Below, piece after piece: positions 20,261 through 55,634 of a stretch of DNA of 64,000 nucleotides (position 1 is the stretch's first letter; the number at the start of each line of letters is the position of its first letter). The position numbers and the translations under genes are program-made. Location: NCBI GenBank assembly GCA_034520215.1, contig JAXHNR010000001.1, forward strand, positions 496,001-560,000, in the 5' to 3' direction. The notes below the pieces were generated by a model, which saw nothing but the letters and a program-made list of their open reading frames with translations, was not told where the DNA came from and made no database searches. This DNA is from Candidatus Krumholzibacteriota bacterium (GTDB lineage Bacteria > Krumholzibacteriota > Krumholzibacteriia > Krumholzibacteriales > WJIX01).

Positions 20261-21958
20261 ATGAGCAAAATTGAAATAAGGACGATATGTCTTATTATTC
20301 CACTCTTTTTTGCCTTCTTTTTATATTCAGCTGACATTCAAGCGCAAGATTTATCGACCGGGGATATGAAAATAGCCCCCGCAAACGCGAAAGAAATATC
20401 GCGACAGTATTTGGATGAAAAGGGTAAAATGGTTTCTTCTACGCGGCTTTTTCTCTCGCAAAACGGGATTGAAAATGAAAAGCCTCAAGCTGACGGAGAA
20501 AGTGAAAACGTGGATCTGCGGGGAATATGGGATACAGTCGGCGGGTGTGAATCAGCCGCGGCGAGGGGAGACACCGTTTACTTCGGGGATGATTCAACTC
20601 TTGTAAAAGTAGATTTCACAAATCCCCCTCTTCCCGTTAAAATCGAGGAAATTACCGTTGGAGGGCTGATAAAGGATATAGCATTAAACGGTAATTATGC
20701 CTATGTCGTTGTTGATAATAACGGGCTTCATGTGATTGATATCAGTGATCCGGACACCCTTTTTGAAACAGATTTCTTAAGCACTGACGGAGCGAGTGGT
20801 GTGGCGGTAAACGATGATTTCGCCTATGTGGCAGATGTGAATTCCGGCTTAAGGGTGATAGATGTCAGCGATCCCTACAGATTAGTGGAGGTTGGTTTAT
20901 TTGGTACTAACGGTTATGCCATAGAGGTTGTTGTAAGAGGTGATTACGCTTACGTAGCTGATGGCTTGGAAGGTCTGAGGGTGATCGATATAAGCAACCC
21001 GGACAGCCTCTACGAAGCGGGGTTTTTTGATACAGGCGACTATCCCTGTTATGCCTGTGGCGTGGCTCTTGACGGGAACTTCGCCTATGTCGCTTATTTT
21101 GAGTGCGGTCTTCGTGTAATTGATATCAGCGTTCCCGATAGCCTGAAAGAGGTCGGATTTATTATGACCGCGGACAGGGCTTGGGATGTGGCCTTAGACG
21201 GCAATTTCGCGTATGTAGCTGACAGATCTGGCGGACTTCGCGTGATAGAAATAACCGATCCTGAAAACCCGTTCGAAGCGGGGTATTACGACACAAGCGA
21301 TGAAGCTATGGCAATTTCCCTATCTGATGATAATATATTCGCGGCAATGGCCGGCAGCGGAATATATCTTTTCTATACCCATCTTGTCCCTACTCTAGTT
21401 CAGGAATATTCTGCGGTTTTCTCTAATGAAACGATCAAAGTAGAATGGAAACTGTCTGAAGCTGTTGATATTTCAGAATTCGCAGTTTACAGGGGGCAAT
21501 TTCCGGAAGGAAATTTAGAGAGAATTCAGCCCCTAAAGATAAAGGTCTATGATTTGATATACACATTCGAGGATGCCGATTGCAGAGCGGGGGAAACATA
21601 TTTTTACCGTGTGGGAATCGAAGACGGAAACTGTTATAAAATTCTCTTTGAGACAGAGAGAATATCTATTCCACAGGTGCCGTTTGCTCTTCATCAGAGT
21701 TATCCGAATCCATTTAATCCCTCAACTACTATTGTTTATGATTTACCTGAGAGAGGAAAGGTTACGCTGGATATCTATGATGCGGCTGGAAGGTTCGTCA
21801 AATGTCTTGTAGATCGCGCACAGAATGGAGGAAGTAATAAATCTGTTGTGTGGAATGGTAAGGATATGGCCGGTAACCCGGTATGCTCGGGAGTTTACTT
21901 CTGCAGGTTAAGATTCGGCCGGAAGGAGCTTTCTCGAAAGATGATATTGTTAAAATAA
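20261..21958 (+). CDS. Secreted LVIVD beta-propeller protein with C-terminal sorting domain
   Basis: 565 residues. A signal peptide (about 1-28, ending in IQAQD) is followed by about six LVIVD-type repeats (consensus G-x-FAYVAD...GLRVIDISNPDSLxEVGFFDT; roughly 130-370), a fibronectin-like stretch, and a C-terminal domain starting QSYPNPFNPSTTI (about 476-489) and ending in SGVYFCRLRFG...KMILLK. This last domain is the FlgD-like / type IX secretion sorting module of FCB bacteria. Expected location is the cell surface or medium. Confidence 0.87.
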   Translation: MSKIEIRTICLIIPLFFAFFLYSADIQAQDLSTGDMKIAPANAKEISRQYLDEKGKMVSSTRLFLSQNGIENEKPQADGESENVDLRGIWDTVGGCESAAARGDTVYFGDDSTLVKVDFTNPPLPVKIEEITVGGLIKDIALNGNYAYVVVDNNGLHVIDISDPDTLFETDFLSTDGASGVAVNDDFAYVADVNSGLRVIDVSDPYRLVEVGLFGTNGYAIEVVVRGDYAYVADGLEGLRVIDISNPDSLYEAGFFDTGDYPCYACGVALDGNFAYVAYFECGLRVIDISVPDSLKEVGFIMTADRAWDVALDGNFAYVADRSGGLRVIEITDPENPFEAGYYDTSDEAMAISLSDDNIFAAMAGSGIYLFYTHLVPTLVQEYSAVFSNETIKVEWKLSEAVDISEFAVYRGQFPEGNLERIQPLKIKVYDLIYTFEDADCRAGETYFYRVGIEDGNCYKILFETERISIPQVPFALHQSYPNPFNPSTTIVYDLPERGKVTLDIYDAAGRFVKCLVDRAQNGGSNKSVVWNGKDMAGNPVCSGVYFCRLRFGRKELSRKMILLK

Positions 21959-34805: not shown

Positions 34806-34861
34806 TGGGGGTCGGTTGATCTGCGAAGTGAAGTGACTTGTATTTGTTGGGAGAGTCGGCG

Positions 34862-36445
34862 GTGAGAGAAGATAAGAAACGTCTAGTTTTGATAATATGT
34901 ATGCTTATTATTTTTCTGTCCTCCTGCGTTTATTTCAATACTTTGTATAATGCCCGCCGCATTTACAGCGACACGGAGGAAAAACGCCTGCAAAGCAAGT
35001 CAAGCACCGGTATGGAGAAGGAATATCAAAGGGTTGTTGTTAAATGCTCGAAGATCCTACAGAATAATCCTGACAGCGGATGGGCCGATGACGCGGCCTT
35101 CCTTCTTGGCAAGGCATTGTTCAGGCAGGGTAAGTATAACGAGTCAGCGAAAAAGTTTGAGGAAATATTAGATAATTGGCCCGAAGAAAAATACGCTCCC
35201 CTTTCACTCTTCTGGCTGGGGAAAATATATCTAAGCAAGGAAGAATTTAATAAAGCTCTTGAATATACTGCTCGTTTCATTAAAAAATATCCGGAACATG
35301 AAATACGTTTTCAGGTAATGCTGCTTGCCGGAGAAATTAGCCTGAAATTAGATAGAAGAAAAGAAGCTCTGGAGTTCTATTCGAAGGTTATCAGGGAAGC
35401 TGACAGCGAGGAAGTTGTAGAAAAAGCAACAGCAGAATGCGCCGATTTATACTTTTTGTTCGAAGAATGGAAAGATGCCGCTCGTTTTTATGAAAAAATG
35501 CTGCATAAAGGCATTTCATGGGAGAAAAGATACAATTTCTCATTGTCGCTGGGTGAGTGTTACACGAAACTCGAAAGGTGTCGCGAGGCCATTGACTTAT
35601 ATGATAAGCTCTTTGACGAGGTGATCGGGAAGAAGGAAAAAGCTCCGGTATTACTTGGTAAAGCGGCCGGTTACGTGTGCATAGATTCAGTGAGTCTGGC
35701 AAAGCGCTTTTATGAAGATATTATTGGAAAATATCCAAAGACACTATTTTCAGCGGAAGCCTGTTATCATCTGGGAATGCTGTTTCACGCGCAGGCAGAT
35801 TCACTCGAAAAGGCAAAAGAGTATTTCAGTAAAGTGGGAAAAGAAGCTCCGGAATCGCAGTACGCCACCGAAGCTCTAAAGAAATCGAACAGCATAGGAC
35901 GGTTACTTGAACTGGAAAATGAAGGGGAGAAAGGTCAAACAGATAAGCAGAAAGCTAAGAAGAAATTTTATTCAGCTGAATTACAATTATCACAGTTCGG
36001 TAACGTGGAGAAAGCTCTCAGAAATTATCGAGTAGTTCTGGACAGTTTCCCGGAGATTGAGATTAGTCCCAGAGCCGCGTACGCTATTGGTTGGATTTAT
36101 CAAGAAAAACTGAAACAAAATGATAAAGCTGTAAAGGCCTACAGAGAAGTTATCCTGAGTTTTCCAAGATCTGTACAGGCCTTGGGAGCGATTGAACAGA
36201 TCGAGTTTTTAGGGGATCTTAAGTTAATGGAAAGACTTCAAGGATATGTTGATTCTGTAAGAGCGTTAAAACCTGACACTTCCCTGAAACAGTCTGATTT
36301 TGAGTCTTCTGAAATAACAGACAGCAGTGGTATGCTTAATAACACGGGTGTTAAGGCTGATTCCACAGGAGTGTCTCCTGACACAAGCGGGACGGTAATT
36401 CCAGAATCTGCTGATAAAGAACAGAATGGATCAGGGGGAGAATAA
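34862..36445 (+). CDS. TPR lipoprotein inside the pyr operon
   Basis: The GTG at 34862 behind gggagagtcggcg is preferred to a TTG at 34838; 527 residues. A hydrophobic leader ends in FLSSC (lipidated Cys22), then at least ten tetratricopeptide-type helical pairs (WADDAAFLLGKALFRQGKY, ALEYTARFIKKYPEHEIR, AIGWIYQEKLKQND). The C-terminal about 55 residues are Ser/Thr/Asp-rich and probably disordered. It resembles YbgF/BamD-like TPR scaffold lipoproteins. Its place between pyrC and pyrK is odd. Confidence 0.83.
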   Translation: MREDKKRLVLIICMLIIFLSSCVYFNTLYNARRIYSDTEEKRLQSKSSTGMEKEYQRVVVKCSKILQNNPDSGWADDAAFLLGKALFRQGKYNESAKKFEEILDNWPEEKYAPLSLFWLGKIYLSKEEFNKALEYTARFIKKYPEHEIRFQVMLLAGEISLKLDRRKEALEFYSKVIREADSEEVVEKATAECADLYFLFEEWKDAARFYEKMLHKGISWEKRYNFSLSLGECYTKLERCREAIDLYDKLFDEVIGKKEKAPVLLGKAAGYVCIDSVSLAKRFYEDIIGKYPKTLFSAEACYHLGMLFHAQADSLEKAKEYFSKVGKEAPESQYATEALKKSNSIGRLLELENEGEKGQTDKQKAKKKFYSAELQLSQFGNVEKALRNYRVVLDSFPEIEISPRAAYAIGWIYQEKLKQNDKAVKAYREVILSFPRSVQALGAIEQIEFLGDLKLMERLQGYVDSVRALKPDTSLKQSDFESSEITDSSGMLNNTGVKADSTGVSPDTSGTVIPESADKEQNGSGGE

Positions 36446-40211: not shown

Positions 40212-40462
40212 ATCGGGAAAATCCCACGGTTTAATGGATTTTAGATAAACAGAATAAGAAAGAGAGCCTTTGGGGAAACGAACGATTTGTTTATAAGTAA
40301 AAATAATAATGACTCTAGAAGAAAATACCGATACAGGGAAAATCAATAAAACCAAAGGAAACTCCAAGCTTGAAATTTCGAAAATACTTAATATATTATA
40401 ATTACCTGTATTCTGTAGCAATGAGAGTTTTTGTAATAACCGGAAAGTCTGGAGGAAGTGCC

Positions 40463-41680
40463 ATGAAAAGGTTTTTTGCGGTATCTGTATGGATTTCTGT
40501 TCTTTTTTTAGCGATCGGTTGCAGTGAGGATAGTGAAACACAAGGACCAGTAATTAATGATGATTATATAGTTGCTGAAATAGTATCACCTAGTGATGGA
40601 GCGAGATTTTCTCAGGACATGGGAATAACGTTTTACGGTGAAGCAAGATATTTCCAGAGCAGCAGCAGAGTTCCAGATAGTCAGCTCGTTTGGATTTCAG
40701 ATATAGATGGAGAGCTCTCTAGCGGCAGAGCCTTAACCGACAATCTTCTTTCTGTTGGTACTCATGAAATAAAGTTTGAAGCTTTTGACAATGACGGAAA
40801 TATCTCAGGCGACAGTATATCTGTCGTTGTGTATTTAGATTCTGTTTTGGTTTCGATACCATCCGCAGCGGATTTTGATATGGGCTGGAGTGACGGAGTC
40901 GGTACTACCCAGCTTGATTATGAGCCCATACACAGTGTGGCTCTGGATGCCTTTGAGTTAGGCAGATATGAAGTAACCTATTCTCTCTGGTCAAAAGTGA
41001 AAAGCTGGGGTGAATTAAATGGATATACTTTCGAGAACGAAGGCATACGGGGATCAAATTCTACGCTTTCAACTACTATTCAACACCCTGTAACTAATAT
41101 TTCCTGGAGGGACTGCATTGCCTGGTGTAACGCTTATTCAGAGAAAGAGGGGCTTGATCCCGTCTATTATACGAGTTCCGGAAAAACAGAATATTATAAA
41201 GATTCATCATCAGACGGAGATATAAACAATGACTGCGTGGACTGGGCGGGAAATGGGTTCAGACTTCCCACAGAAGCGGAGTGGGAATATGTTGCCAGGT
41301 ATATAGACGGCAGCAGCTATGTGGATGGGGATATGCACAGCGGGTATAATATTAATGCTAATTTGAGTGACTGCGCCTGGTTTCAAGATAATTCAGAGTA
41401 TTTAACACATGGTGTCGGCGAGCTGGCAGCCAATAGTCTGGGGATAAATGACATGAGCGGCAATATCTTTGAATGGTGCTGGGATTACTATGATAGTGAT
41501 TATTATCCCATAGACCCCATAGATCCTATAGATAATCCACGTGGTCCGGATAGCGGGGTTTACCGAGTGCTCCGCGGGGGCAGCTGGATTGATAGTTCTG
41601 AAAAATGCGCTACTTCTGTAAGAAGCAATTTTAGCCCCGGCATCGACAGTAATAACATCGGTTTTAGAGTTTGTCGTTGA
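40463..41680 (+). CDS. SUMF1/FGE-sulfatase-domain lipoprotein
   Basis: The start at 40463 follows GGAGG (40451-40455); 405 residues. LAIGC is a good lipobox (Cys20). An Ig-like or PKD-like domain (about 35-125, VSPSDGARFSQDMGITF) is followed by a formylglycine-generating-enzyme-type domain: LGRYEVTYSLW, HPVTNISWRDCIAWCNAYSE, RLPTEAEWEYVAR, NIFEWCWDYY and LRGGSW, ending GFRVCR. A PIDPIDPIDNP mini-repeat sits in a loop (about 41508-41540). Most such proteins are not real sulfatase activators. Surface lectin or enzyme role unknown. Confidence 0.85.
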   Translation: MKRFFAVSVWISVLFLAIGCSEDSETQGPVINDDYIVAEIVSPSDGARFSQDMGITFYGEARYFQSSSRVPDSQLVWISDIDGELSSGRALTDNLLSVGTHEIKFEAFDNDGNISGDSISVVVYLDSVLVSIPSAADFDMGWSDGVGTTQLDYEPIHSVALDAFELGRYEVTYSLWSKVKSWGELNGYTFENEGIRGSNSTLSTTIQHPVTNISWRDCIAWCNAYSEKEGLDPVYYTSSGKTEYYKDSSSDGDINNDCVDWAGNGFRLPTEAEWEYVARYIDGSSYVDGDMHSGYNINANLSDCAWFQDNSEYLTHGVGELAANSLGINDMSGNIFEWCWDYYDSDYYPIDPIDPIDNPRGPDSGVYRVLRGGSWIDSSEKCATSVRSNFSPGIDSNNIGFRVCR

Positions 41681-49923: not shown

Positions 49924-50075
49924 ACCTTTTGACAGATTAATATTTGTTTTATCCATTTAAATTTGCCTTTTCCCGTATCCTGTGATAGTTTATGATTTGG
50001 GATTGTATTATCCTGAATTCGGGCAGGTTTGTTTTCTCATTTGATTGGTGTACAGAGGTTTGGAGTAGAACGTTT

Positions 50076-51347
50076 ATGCTTGACAGGAAATTTATAAGAA
50101 ATGAACCTGAGGCCTTGCGCAGGGGTATCGAGAATAAGGGAGTGGATTTTGATCTGGATCTTCTCTATCAGTTGGATAAGGATAGGAGGAGGATTATACA
50201 GGAATCTGAAGATCTCAAGCACAGTAAAAATGTTGTTTCTAAAGAGATTGCCCAACTGAAAAAGAACAAGAAAGATGCCTCGGAATTTATAGACAGAATG
50301 AAGGTGACATCTAAACGTATAAAGGAAATAGACAATGAATTAAAAGCAGTCTCAGATAAATTACATGAGATGGAATTAGCAATTCCCAATCTGCCGCATA
50401 AATCTGTTCCAATTGGAAATACTGAGCAGGACAACGTTTTGATAAGAAGTTGGGGAGATCCTTACAGAAATGATCTCGAAATAGCACCTCATTGGGAGAT
50501 TGGTGAAGAATTGGGACTGCTCGACCTCAAGGCTGGATCGGCGGTGAGTGGAAGCGGTTTTGTGGTTCTAAGAGGTGACGGGGCTTTGCTTTCGAGAGCT
50601 CTAATTAATTTTATGCTTGATACTCACAGATCTCATGGATATGAAGAAGTATCGGTCCCCTATCTAGTCAGCAGGGATTCAATGATTGGAACAGGGCAGC
50701 TGCCAAAGATGGCTGAAGACATGTATCACTGCGAAGCAGACGATCTCTACTGTATCCCAACTGCCGAAGTGCCAATTACAAATCTTCTAAGGGAGACTGT
50801 ACTTCCGGCAGATCAGCTGACCGTTAAATTGACAGCGTACAGTCCGTGTTTCAGGAGAGAAGCCGGCAGTTACGGAAAAGATACAAGAGGTCTGATTCGT
50901 GTTCATCAATTTGACAAAGTGGAAATGGTAAAGGCTACTCTGCCTGAGAGATCATATGAAGAGCTTGAGTTATTACTTGATGACGCCTGCAGAGTTCTTG
51001 AATCTTTAGATATTCCTTACCGTGTGGTTGAATTGTGTTCAGGAGATCTGAGTTTTTCCGCGGCAAAATGTTATGATATTGAAACCTACGCTCCGGCCAT
51101 TTCGAAATGGCTGGAAGTTTCTTCATGCAGTAATTTTGAAGATTTTCAAGCCCGCCGTGCCGGTATCAAATTCAGAAGGGGAAAAGGGGAAAAATCTCGA
51201 TTTGTTCATACTCTGAATGGTTCGGGATTAGCCCTTCCAAGGATAATTGCCACAATATTTGAACTCTACCAAACTCCGACCGGCAGGATACGCGTTCCTG
51301 ACGCCCTCGTGAAATATATGGGGGGAAGGGAATATTTAGAGGGTTAA
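50076..51347 (+). CDS. serS: Seryl-tRNA synthetase
   Basis: Class II synthetase. The ATG at 50076 (MLDRKFIRNEPE) is preferred over an earlier frame start at 49992 because it begins at the family's normal N-terminus and gives 423 residues. The N-terminal coiled-coil arm (about 25-105) precedes the catalytic core: motif 2 PCFRREAGSYGKDTRG, QFDKVEM, and motif 3 NGSGLALPRIIA. The kinase gene starts one base after the stop. Confidence 0.96.
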   Translation: MLDRKFIRNEPEALRRGIENKGVDFDLDLLYQLDKDRRRIIQESEDLKHSKNVVSKEIAQLKKNKKDASEFIDRMKVTSKRIKEIDNELKAVSDKLHEMELAIPNLPHKSVPIGNTEQDNVLIRSWGDPYRNDLEIAPHWEIGEELGLLDLKAGSAVSGSGFVVLRGDGALLSRALINFMLDTHRSHGYEEVSVPYLVSRDSMIGTGQLPKMAEDMYHCEADDLYCIPTAEVPITNLLRETVLPADQLTVKLTAYSPCFRREAGSYGKDTRGLIRVHQFDKVEMVKATLPERSYEELELLLDDACRVLESLDIPYRVVELCSGDLSFSAAKCYDIETYAPAISKWLEVSSCSNFEDFQARRAGIKFRRGKGEKSRFVHTLNGSGLALPRIIATIFELYQTPTGRIRVPDALVKYMGGREYLEG

Positions 51348-51348
51348 C

Positions 51349-52593
51349 GTGAAGATAAATATTTCAAGAAATCTTCCCTTTTTAATCAAAATTTATTTTA
51401 TAGTGGGAAGTATTATAATTGTCACTTCACTTCTTTTGTATAACAACAATCTGATTATGCGTATGCAGAAGCAGGCCGAAAATACAACTAGGCTTTTTTC
51501 CCGTTTTACTGGGCTGGCTCTCGGAAGTGTGGAGAATTCAAATAATCAGAAGTTCATACGTGAGATTAGAGAGGCAATGGATCTCCCCTTTGTTATAACT
51601 GATAATGAGGGGCGGCCTATGATATGGAACGAAATCGGAGTTCCTCAGGTAAAGGACGATGAGTATGACAGACTTCTCGATTTTGATCCCCGGAAACCTG
51701 ATGATCTATTGCTCGAAAGGGTATTAGAAAAGGCGAATGAGTTTGACAGGGTAAACAAACCGGTGATTGTTGACACAGAGGAGATGGAACTTTTTATTCA
51801 CTACGGGCTTTCCGGATTGGCCCGGGAACTTAGAATTGCGCCATACGTTCAATTAGGTGTGTTCGTTCTGTTCGCTTTATTTGGTTTTATTGGGTTCAGA
51901 GCTTTAAAGCTCGGGGAACAAAGATCGGTATGGGTTGGCATGGCTAAGGAAACAGCTCATCAGCTCGGCACCCCGCTGTCCTCACTGATGGGTTGGCTGG
52001 AAATCATGAGAGGACAGATAGAATCCGGGCGTGTTTCCGAAAAGTTGTCCTTGGCTGTTGACGAGGCCGGGCTTGATGTTGAAAGGTTAAGCCGGATATC
52101 ATCCCGGTTCAGTAAGATAGGGTCTGCTCCTGAACTTGAATATCAGGACATATCGTCGCTGATTATGGAAACAGTGAGTTATTTTGAACGGAGGCGGCCG
52201 GCTCTGAAAATAAAGTCGATAATAGATGTTGAATTTGAAAAATTGCCTATGGTTCGCTGCAGCAGGGACCTTGTCGGCTGGGTATTCGAGAATCTGATAA
52301 AGAATTCTCTCGATGCTATATCCGGCAAAGAGGGGAAGATATCTATAAAAGGCAGTTTAAATAGAAAAAGTAACAATATAGAGATTCTATTCAGTGATAC
52401 CGGCAAGGGTATAACAGCGGCCCTCAGAAAGAGAATTTTCGATCCGGGTATTACAACAAAAGAAAGGGGTTGGGGGTTGGGTCTTGCTCTTGTAAAGCGT
52501 ATCGTTGAAGAGATACATGATGGGTCTATAAAGTTAATTCAATCCCGTTCCAACGAGGGGACTACCTTTCTAGTTACATTTCCAGTAGATTAA
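51349..52593 (+). CDS. Sensor histidine kinase next to PorX
   Basis: 414 residues. Two membrane helices (about 11-31 and 165-185) flank a roughly 130-residue periplasmic domain. No HAMP domain is obvious; the second helix leads almost at once into the H-box AKETAHQLGTPLSS with His204. N-box ENLIKNSLDAI, DTGKGI and GWGLGLALV form the ATP site. GTG start. It ends 15 bases before the PorX-like gene, so the two are very probably cognate. Confidence 0.92.
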   Translation: MKINISRNLPFLIKIYFIVGSIIIVTSLLLYNNNLIMRMQKQAENTTRLFSRFTGLALGSVENSNNQKFIREIREAMDLPFVITDNEGRPMIWNEIGVPQVKDDEYDRLLDFDPRKPDDLLLERVLEKANEFDRVNKPVIVDTEEMELFIHYGLSGLARELRIAPYVQLGVFVLFALFGFIGFRALKLGEQRSVWVGMAKETAHQLGTPLSSLMGWLEIMRGQIESGRVSEKLSLAVDEAGLDVERLSRISSRFSKIGSAPELEYQDISSLIMETVSYFERRRPALKIKSIIDVEFEKLPMVRCSRDLVGWVFENLIKNSLDAISGKEGKISIKGSLNRKSNNIEILFSDTGKGITAALRKRIFDPGITTKERGWGLGLALVKRIVEEIHDGSIKLIQSRSNEGTTFLVTFPVD

Positions 52594-52608
52594 AAGGGAA
52601 AAATTAAA

Positions 52609-54174
52609 ATGTCTGCTTTAAGAAAAAGAAAACGCATATTATGGGTAGATGATGAGATTGATCTTCTTCGTGCGCATTTGATTTTTCTCGAAGAAAAGGG
52701 CTACTACGTAAAGGGTGTCCCCAGTGGTCAGGAGTGTTTAGAGCTTATAGCGGCTGAGAACTTTGATCTTGTTCTTCTCGATGAGACTATGCCCGGTAAA
52801 AGTGGATTGCAAACACTTCATGAAATAAAAGAGGTTAATGCCAACCTGCCCGTTATTATGATAACCAAGAATGAAGAAGAAGGGTTGATGGATCAGGCAA
52901 TTGGGATGAAAATAGACGGTTATCTTTTAAAACCCGTCAATCCGCTCCAGATTTATTCCGCGTCTAAGCGTATTCTGGAATCTCATAAAATCCAGGAAGG
53001 GATTATCAACAAGGAGTATTTACAGTTTTTTCATTCCGCGGATAATCTTATCGGCGGTAACATTTTTTATGAAGACTGGATAAAAATCCACAAGGATCTA
53101 ACTTACTGGGATCTTGAATTTGACCGTTTCAGCAATACCGGCCTTAACCAGACTCATATGGAGTTGAGAGACAAGAGTAATATGAGATTTGGCCGTTTTA
53201 TTGAAAAGGAATATGTTGAGTGGGTTAATTCGGTAAATGGACCTAAATTGAGCGTGGACCTTTTTGACCAATTTGTATTTCCTCATCTCGACAGTAATAA
53301 AGCCGTTTATCTTATTGTCATAGATTGTATGCGGTACGACCAATGGCTTATGATGGAAGATCTTTTAGCTGATTTTTATACTATAAACAGGGACTTCTTC
53401 TACGCGACCCTGCCAACGGCCACACCCTATTCGAGAAATTCAATATTTTCAGGTTTACACCCGATTGATATTAAGAAGAAGTACCCCTCGTACTGGATGG
53501 AGAAAGCAAAGAATGAAGAAACGGGAAAGAATCTATTTGAAGATGAACTTATGCGGGAACAACTTAACAAGAAAGGGTTTGGTAAGATAAAATCAAAATA
53601 TATAAAAATTTATGACTCTGACGGAGCTGATAATATTCAAAATCAGGTTGCTACTTATAAGTCCCTTGATTTGGTTGCAATAGTTATTAATTTTATCGAC
53701 ATACTTTCTCATGGAAGAAGCCACAGCAGGATACTTTCAGAAATATCTCCCGATGAGAGTGCTTTTCGTTCTTTGACGCGGTCGTGGTTTATACATTCCG
53801 TTCTTTTCGAGATACTGAAGAAGATAGTGCGGCAAGACGCCACTGTCTTAATTACTACCGATCACGGGTCTATTTTAAGCAAAAAAGCTGCCCTTATCAG
53901 AGCTAACAAGAAAACTTCCACTAATCTCAGATATAAATTCGGTGAAAATATAAGCTCTGATAAAAAATACTGTTATCATGTAAGTAATCCGGTTGATTTA
54001 AGACTTCCGGCGGAAAGTCCATCAAAGAATTATGTGTTTGCCAAAGAGAATTACTATTTTGTTTATCCTACTGATTTTCATAAATATGAGAAACAGTTCC
54101 GGGGAAGTTTTCAACATGGTGGAATTTCTCTCGAAGAGATGATCGTTCCGTGTGTTACACTTGAATCGAAATAA
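52609..54174 (+). CDS. porX: PorX-type response regulator with PglZ domain
   Basis: 521 residues. The receiver domain (1 to about 125) has Asp14/Asp15, phospho-acceptor Asp58 (LVLLDETMPG) and Lys108. It is joined through a helical linker to an alkaline-phosphatase-superfamily PglZ domain (about 200-520): VIDCMRYDQW, PTATPYSRNSIFSGLHP (Thr270/Thr272 as nucleophile candidates), TTDHGS and a C-terminal HGGISLEEM. This architecture is that of PorX, the regulator of type IX secretion in Porphyromonas. The acceptor position (Asp58) coincides with it. Confidence 0.92.
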   Translation: MSALRKRKRILWVDDEIDLLRAHLIFLEEKGYYVKGVPSGQECLELIAAENFDLVLLDETMPGKSGLQTLHEIKEVNANLPVIMITKNEEEGLMDQAIGMKIDGYLLKPVNPLQIYSASKRILESHKIQEGIINKEYLQFFHSADNLIGGNIFYEDWIKIHKDLTYWDLEFDRFSNTGLNQTHMELRDKSNMRFGRFIEKEYVEWVNSVNGPKLSVDLFDQFVFPHLDSNKAVYLIVIDCMRYDQWLMMEDLLADFYTINRDFFYATLPTATPYSRNSIFSGLHPIDIKKKYPSYWMEKAKNEETGKNLFEDELMREQLNKKGFGKIKSKYIKIYDSDGADNIQNQVATYKSLDLVAIVINFIDILSHGRSHSRILSEISPDESAFRSLTRSWFIHSVLFEILKKIVRQDATVLITTDHGSILSKKAALIRANKKTSTNLRYKFGENISSDKKYCYHVSNPVDLRLPAESPSKNYVFAKENYYFVYPTDFHKYEKQFRGSFQHGGISLEEMIVPCVTLESK

Positions 54175-54406: not shown

Positions 54407-54922
54407 ATGAATCGCCTGAATGATTTAAGCGGTCCCCCGAGAGTGTTATCTCTCCGGAGCGAATCAAGTACAAAGACAATGAATATCGGGAGATTATTTG
54501 GAAGCATCCTTCCCGCCGGATCGGCAGTTTCTCTCGAAGGGGGGCTCGGAGCGGGTAAAACTCTTTTCGCCGGCGGTATATGCGAGGGTCTGGGAATTAA
54601 GGAAGAAGTCCTAAGCCCGACATTTATCCTGCTGGAAGAGTATAAAGGTTTATTTCCCGTACTCCATTTTGATCTTTATAGACTGGAAAAAATCGAAGAT
54701 GTCAGAGAATTAGGATTATTCGATGCCGCCGATGGACGTAATGTAATTTTAGTTGAATGGGGGGATCGCCTGCCGGACTGTGTTATGGAGTTTGATATTC
54801 ACGTGGATATTAAAATAATAAACGACGATGAAAGAAGAATTAGTTTTAAAGGTCCGGATAATTTGATACGAACGCTTATGGAGGATGATATTGAGCTCGA
54901 CACGTTTTATAATGGCAATTGA
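54407..54922 (+). CDS. tsaE: tRNA t6A synthesis ATPase TsaE
   Basis: ATPase that works with TsaB and TsaD to make N6-threonylcarbamoyladenosine at tRNA position 37. 171 residues; P-loop GGLGAGKT (45-52), SPTFILLEEY and HFDLYRL are typical. tsaB starts inside its 3' end. TsaD is not in the window. Confidence 0.93.
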   Translation: MNRLNDLSGPPRVLSLRSESSTKTMNIGRLFGSILPAGSAVSLEGGLGAGKTLFAGGICEGLGIKEEVLSPTFILLEEYKGLFPVLHFDLYRLEKIEDVRELGLFDAADGRNVILVEWGDRLPDCVMEFDIHVDIKIINDDERRISFKGPDNLIRTLMEDDIELDTFYNGN

Positions 54923-55634
54923 CAGTTCACACCTTAAGGGCAGTGTGGCTGTATCTCGTGGAGATGAATTATTGTGTGAAATTCTCTTTGACGCCAGCGA
55001 TACTCATTCCGCCACATTGCTTCCCGCGGTAGACGTGTGTCTGCGCTCTGCTCACCTTGGAGTTAAAGATATTGACTTATTCGGCATTGTAAGAGGCCCC
55101 GGCAGTTTTACAGGACTTAGAATAGGACTGGCCACGATTAAGGCTTTAGCCGCTGTCAAAAAAAGGCCGGTTGTTTCAGCCACAAGTCTGGAGGTTCTCG
55201 CGGCTGCTTTTCCGTATCTTTCCCGCGAGGTGGTCCCGATAATTGACGCGAGGAGGGGTGAAGTCTATTTGGCGATATACAGCACGAAAGGGGGGTTGCC
55301 TTCCGCCATTCTCGAACCGGTTGCTGTAAGACCTGAAGAAATACCTTCGCTGATTGAGGAAAATTGCCAAGGCCCAGTTATTTTCTGCGGAACGGGGATA
55401 AAAAAATACAGGGAAGCAATAGAGCCGAAGATGCCCCCGGGCAGCAGTTATTCAGTTTTATATGGTTCTGTTCCGCGTGCATCGCTTCTTATAGCCGTAA
55501 CAAGGGGCAGAGTGGAAGTTGAATACGAGGAGCTTTCTGAATTGGCGCCATTATATATCAGACCTCCCGACGCTAAATTGCCTGACTCAACTGATCTTAA
55601 TCCCGGAGGGAGCAGCCGTTGGCCGATTTTGTGA
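54912..55634 (+). CDS. tsaB: tRNA t6A synthesis protein TsaB
   Basis: Inactive ASKHA-fold partner of TsaD. The ATG at 54912 gives the usual N-terminus (MAIDSSHLKGSVAVS) and 240 residues; an ATG at 54885 is possible but would add an odd leader. GIVRGPGSFTGLRIGLATIK (about 58-77) is the hallmark. It overlaps both tsaE and rimI. Confidence 0.92.
   Translation: MAIDSSHLKGSVAVSRGDELLCEILFDASDTHSATLLPAVDVCLRSAHLGVKDIDLFGIVRGPGSFTGLRIGLATIKALAAVKKRPVVSATSLEVLAAAFPYLSREVVPIIDARRGEVYLAIYSTKGGLPSAILEPVAVRPEEIPSLIEENCQGPVIFCGTGIKKYREAIEPKMPPGSSYSVLYGSVPRASLLIAVTRGRVEVEYEELSELAPLYIRPPDAKLPDSTDLNPGGSSRWPIL

Follow-up and report, generated by a model that had tools for sequence, protein, structure and literature searches.

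A probable PorY–PorX two-component system encoded by neighbouring genes in Krumholzibacteriota

We analysed a 64,000-nucleotide (nt) stretch of DNA from a Candidatus Krumholzibacteriota bacterium (assembly GCA_034520215.1, contig JAXHNR010000001.1, positions 496,001 to 560,000; hereafter the window). Between positions 49992 and 54174 of the forward strand, open reading frames and Pfam matches define three genes: serS, a gene for a 414-residue sensor kinase and a gene for a response regulator of 521 residues that carries a PglZ domain. The kinase and the regulator are in all likelihood the PorY–PorX two-component system known from Porphyromonas gingivalis, encoded in Krumholzibacteriota by neighbouring genes that are probably co-transcribed. 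The initial annotation of this DNA had described a sensor kinase 15 bases upstream of a PorX homologue, with serS just upstream of the kinase, and the open reading frames agree: the gap between serS and the kinase gene is 1 nt, that between the kinase gene and porX is 15 nt, and tsaE follows porX after 232 nt.

The regulator, encoded at positions 52609-54174 (+), has a Response_reg domain followed by a PglZ effector domain of the alkaline phosphatase superfamily. It scores 645.7 bits against the NCBIfam equivalog model NF052313 (cut-off of 300), aligns with model positions 2-513 of 513, and is the sole full-length PorX found in this genome. The closest solved structure is that of P. gingivalis PorX (PDB 7pv7; phmmer E value of 7e-133), and the same domain order is seen in PDB entries 8ted and 8p6f (E values of 3.6e-124 and 3.5e-124), which we take to be PorX of Flavobacterium johnsoniae. 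Orthology to P. gingivalis PorX (PGN_1019) extends along the length of the protein, with 204 of 517 aligned positions identical. The acceptor aspartate had been placed at residue 58; this residue (codon 52780-52782) aligns with Asp58 of P. gingivalis PorX and is invariant across 10 aligned sequences.

An alignment of the PglZ active site, which the initial annotation had proposed as a check, shows that all seven metal and nucleophile residues are identical to those of P. gingivalis PorX: Asp239, the nucleophile Thr272, Asp364, His368, Asp418 and His419 (encoded within 53323-53865) and His503 (54115-54117). Because all seven are kept, the domain should be an enzyme, likely an active zinc phosphodiesterase. 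The roles of the equivalent zinc-site residues were defined in F. johnsoniae PorX (PMC11320123), and the counterparts of that site are conserved in the window protein, although the acceptor is Asp54 in F. johnsoniae (PMC11320123) and Asp58 here. The system had been pictured as a kinase directly controlling a phosphatase or phosphodiesterase. The enzymatic part of this picture is what the conserved site leads one to expect; direct control, however, is not supported by F. johnsoniae PorX, which retains phosphodiesterase activity in vitro both as the phospho-null D54A variant and without its receiver domain (PMC11320123). PglZ catalysis is non-essential for secretion in P. gingivalis, and catalytic mutants are reported to lose only part of their secretion (PMC11320123). 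A PglZ domain is also shared with the PglZ proteins of BREX, and the BREX_PglZ_3 model gives 101 bits on window PorX. However, this score is below the model cut-off of 250, and the window protein differs from BREX PglZ in its N-terminal receiver domain and in its neighbours, which are serS, porY, tsaE and tsaB.

The kinase gene (51349-52593, +) has a GTG start. In Pfam, its product has HATPase_c above the cut-off and HisKA at 22.2 bits, just below the cut-off of 26.9; the 25 listed of its 74 NCBIfam matches are to models of generic kinases, with no PorY model among them. Against the P. gingivalis genome (G366) it gave a single strong match at 191 bits, the next kinase reaching 28.3 bits at most. 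The matched protein (L258) has 395 residues from its likely start and a phospho-acceptor at His193, and PorY of P. gingivalis (PGN_2001) is described as a 395-residue protein with His193 (PMC5005315). A blastp alignment of the two (203 bits; 130 of 407 positions, or 32%, identical) is full length: it spans both membrane segments and the sensor domain and sets His204 of the window kinase opposite His193, within an H-box, ETAHQLGTP (residues 201-209; 51949-51975), that is the same in both proteins. In the reverse search, P. gingivalis PorY matched the window kinase at 203 bits and the other nine kinase open reading frames at 87 or less; the ten frames came from the window and the stretches of its own genome that were read, and may not be all the kinases of the genome. 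In an unrooted tree of a chosen subset of 95 kinases, support of 100/100 sets the 67 PorY proteins, from linked and unlinked loci alike, as a single clade against the 28 other kinases; at its base this clade branches like a comb. Of the 35 genomes of the Fibrobacteres–Chlorobi–Bacteroidetes (FCB) group that were searched, both linked and unlinked, 34 gave a single strong kinase match, any further match scoring much lower. Judged by sequence, the window kinase is a PorY orthologue, not a substitute partner.

The kinase had also been described as a two-helix sensor with a periplasmic domain. Hydropathy, a method that gave minor extra segments as well, places hydrophobic segments at residues 12-30 and 163-181, flanking residues 33-163, and at 15-33 and 156-174 in P. 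gingivalis PorY, so that the two proteins have the same layout. An AlphaFold2 model of the periplasmic domain (residues 33-163; 51445-51837) has an alpha/beta fold, with a mean predicted local distance difference test score of 82.4 and a predicted template modelling score of 0.72. The best aligned chains are mostly sensor domains of histidine kinases and chemoreceptors, including CusS, KinD, WalK, LuxQ, CitA and PhoQ (Z scores of 5 to 7.6). Because these matches are middling (Z scores of 7.6 at most and Foldseek E values of 0.02 at best), we describe the domain only as probably a sensor of the PAS/Cache type; families beyond those named may fit it too.

PorX is present in 74 of 80 Krumholzibacteriota genomes and in 45 of the 46 of good quality. 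Setting aside two genomes where PorX starts at a contig edge (G050 and G055) and the genome of the window itself (G000), we collected 72 loci from 71 genomes of the phylum (G075 contributing two), 68 of them with at least 1,300 nt of upstream DNA; the remaining four were not counted for linkage, and two of those still show the end of a kinase gene. The porY-type kinase gene lies upstream of porX on the same strand in 65 of the 68 loci, within 250 nt in 62 of the 65. On its upstream side, porY is adjoined by serS in 55 of the 60 loci with at least 2,700 nt of upstream DNA, and tsaE lies downstream of porX in 64 of 66. Several loci depart from this order: serS was not found near porY–porX in L046 and L071 (both of family f3), and a 561-residue open frame separates porX from tsaE in L050 (G014). 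Two genomes of the same genus, each a single contig, have a broken porX, possibly through assembly joins: in G074 (L105) the part next to tsaE encodes PorX only from about residue 110 onwards, and in G075 residues 8-271 and 281-521 are about 1.3 Mb apart (L106 and L107).

Outside the phylum, we kept the best 80 of 589 loci, a choice that biases the sample towards relatives of the window. Removing six with short upstream DNA and nine matched by contig name or length to genomes of the phylum (L150 being in both groups) left 66, in 14 of which the kinase is linked, always together with serS. These 14 comprise nine loci from Zixibacteria, one from Eisenbacteria, two others, one titled Ignavibacterium and one titled Calditrichota; the last two group with Zixibacteria in the trees. 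The serS–porY–porX–tsaE–tsaB cluster of Krumholzibacteriota is also found in Zixibacteria and in an Eisenbacteria genome. At the 52 unlinked loci, both the kinase gene and serS are missing from the neighbourhood of porX, and the kinase is normally found elsewhere in the same genome. This is the situation in Bacteroidota, Ignavibacteria, KSB1, Calditrichota and Cloacimonadota, where porX is found with tsaE and porY elsewhere; tsaE adjoins porX in 62 of 66 outside loci, a slightly different set because tsaE needs its own flank. The two genes had been called unlinked in Porphyromonas, rightly so: on the single 2,354,886-nt contig of P. gingivalis G366, porX maps to 1.13 Mb and porY to 2.24 Mb, about 1.1 Mb apart as against 15 nt in the window. 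Next to P. gingivalis porX, too, stands tsaE (L233), so that a secretion regulator keeps a gene for threonylcarbamoyladenosine (t6A) synthesis as its neighbour; porX of that species is reported to lie within the operon PGN_1016-PGN_1021 (PMC8050853).

The initial annotation regarded the pair as probably one signalling unit and named a different conserved partner in relatives as a finding that would speak against it. The loci examined did not go against it: the neighbour of porX belongs to this one kinase family in 65 of the 68 phylum loci and in 14 of the 66 outside loci, which supports a conserved signalling unit. In a quick, unrooted PorX tree of a chosen subset of 63 rows, all linked rows and one unlinked Latescibacterota row (L133) form one clade (Shimodaira–Hasegawa-like approximate likelihood ratio test support of 96), and the linked/unlinked label needs two changes. 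Because these rows form a single clade, the gene order was probably altered once or twice and passed on thereafter; since the trees are unrooted, a gain in the linked clade looks the same as a loss elsewhere. The porY–porX linkage is an inherited arrangement of one sub-group of the FCB bacteria, the genes being apart in Bacteroidota. Where they are apart, the two proteins still occur together. PorX is accompanied by the kinase (counted as present at E < 1e-40; remaining matches were at 1e-17 to 1e-25) in 204 of 247 Bacteroidales genomes, and both are missing in 19 (Fisher p = 7.6e-13, a value that ignores kinship and incomplete genomes).

What the pair regulates is suggested by the rest of the genome, where the initial annotation had proposed a search for type IX secretion genes. 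The SprA/Sov translocon is encoded (497 bits; cut-off of 200), and the sorting-tail model TIGR04183 has 41 matches; because of these two features, type IX secretion is most likely what the PorY–PorX pair controls. SprA was found in all 80 genomes of the phylum (E ≤ 0.001), over the cut-off in 72, and the sorting tail in all 44 genomes tried, control genomes being matched in 2 of 14. One protein of the window itself (20261-21958, +), with LVIVD repeats, carries a sorting tail by both PF18962 (27.8 bits; cut-off of 27) and TIGR04183 (36.8 bits; cut-off of 23) and is likely a secreted type IX cargo. The SprA gene (in L305, which covers 655000-674999 of contig C2 of the window genome) has rimP–nusA downstream and is flanked by lptF/lptG and a gene for a GWxTD-domain protein on the opposite strand. 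Two further window proteins have matches of this kind: an FGE-sulfatase-domain protein (40370-41680, +), which may be a ring-protein relative and whose best NCBIfam match, GldK/PorK, reaches 63.8 bits against a much higher cut-off of 350, and a tetratricopeptide-repeat protein (34838-36445, +) with 134 bits to YbgF, over the cut-off, and 75 bits to PorW/SprE, below the cut-off of 250.

By orthology to the P. gingivalis system, PorY would sense the state of the periplasm through its PAS/Cache-like domain, autophosphorylate at His204 and pass the phosphate to Asp58 of PorX. Phosphorylated PorX would then dimerise and act on type IX secretion through gene expression, the activity of the machine or both. 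The zinc PglZ domain would serve as a phosphodiesterase, and its activity might be controlled by PorY. For the P. gingivalis proteins, phosphotransfer from PorY to PorX has been shown (PMC4800418), and transfer together with binding has been reported (PMC4800418, PMC5005315); PorX is also reported to bind PorL/GldL (PMC5005315, PMC10951265).

Several observations weigh against this reading of the pair. In P. gingivalis, deletion of porY has a milder effect than deletion of porX (PMC8050853, PMC11320123), and for this reason another kinase may also serve PorX. The kinase is missing upstream of porX in three of the 68 phylum loci (L083, L105 and L107), and about 700 nt separate the two genes in three others (L046, L071 and L057); 14 Bacteroidales genomes have PorX without the kinase, and ten have the kinase without PorX. 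GldM was found in none of 80 phylum genomes with a model that matched 3 of 28 controls (P. gingivalis, G106 and, weakly, G104), and GldL was over the cut-off in none of 16, its model matching only P. gingivalis and G106 among 44 genomes. These points bear on several alternatives. It is highly improbable that an unrelated sensor kinase was recruited beside porX in this lineage as a different partner from PorY: the identity to P. gingivalis PorY is only 32%, and histidine kinase cores resemble one another across families, but the full-length alignment takes in the membrane and sensor parts, the top scores run both ways, the fully supported PorY clade excludes the 28 other kinases, and nearly every FCB genome searched has one clear match. 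We reject this candidate on those grounds. Chance neighbourhood was rejected as well, given linkage in 65 of 68 phylum loci and linked loci in further phyla. It is a little less improbable, but still distinctly unlikely, that the adjacency is incidental, the gene order being simply inherited and the phosphate on PorX coming mainly from other donors. A single origin could explain the linked clade, so that its loci are not independent, and the mild porY phenotype (PMC8050853) points the same way; however, the order has been kept with short gaps over several phyla and the proteins co-occur where unlinked, both of which point to selection on the pair, and the P. gingivalis proteins exchange phosphate and bind.

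A role outside type IX secretion, such as a general envelope response or one linked to translation, as serS, tsaE and tsaB might suggest, also seems unlikely. In its favour are the widespread porX–tsaE linkage, seen within the phylum, outside it and in P. gingivalis, the fact that no scanned window protein passed a cut-off as type IX machinery, and the GldL/GldM negatives. Housekeeping neighbours, however, often persist without functional meaning, SprA is in every genome of the phylum, and sorting tails are in every genome examined. Nor did we accept the GldL/GldM negatives as showing that the motor is missing: the two models miss every genome tried from outside Bacteroidia, save for the one weak GldM match, and this includes Balneola and Ignavibacteria genomes in which sorting tails abound. 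Because the models fail beyond Bacteroidia, these negatives cannot show absence, and the difference from P. gingivalis is that any GldL and GldM of the window genome are unrecognisable with the NCBI models. A more speculative and rather doubtful extension of the PorY–PorX reading makes this pair, together with SprA and cargo bearing sorting tails, an ancient type IX core across the FCB group that predates the GldL/GldM motor or is independent of it; PorX of Krumholzibacteriota would then have a target different from GldL and might act by hydrolysing oligonucleotides with its PglZ domain.

The remaining members of the cluster have housekeeping functions. Upstream, the serS frame, with Seryl_tRNA_N (PF02403) and tRNA-synt_2b (PF00587) domains of a seryl-tRNA synthetase, opens at 49992 and ends at 51347 (+); because homologues begin at its residue 29, the gene probably starts at 50076 rather than at 49992. 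Downstream lie tsaE (54407-54922, +; PF02367), the t6A synthesis ATPase gene that follows porX across the FCB group, and, next in the cluster, a tsaB-like gene of the TsaD/TsaB family (54885-55634, +; PF00814). A scan for promoters and terminators gave results near those of shuffled sequence (16 versus 14.7; 8 versus 5.3) and so was set aside as evidence.

The proteins themselves are known ones; what we describe is a well-conserved PorY–PorX pair outside Bacteroidota, in a phylum other than that of P. gingivalis and in an arrangement that is apparently unreported. Published work calls porX and porY orphan genes in P. gingivalis, does not settle whether PorX has PorY as its true, or its sole, kinase (PMC11320123, PMC8050853), and treats the phylogeny of the two proteins within Bacteroidetes (PMC7323717). 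A literature search, with most subscription papers outside its coverage, found no description of linked porX–porY and no publications on PorX with TsaE, on type IX secretion with Krumholzibacteria or on the type IX system with Zixibacteria. Linkage in other phyla, together with co-occurrence where the genes are unlinked, is independent evidence that PorY and PorX are ancestral partners. The linked pairs bear on the open question of partner identity in P. gingivalis, and they offer material for reconstitution.

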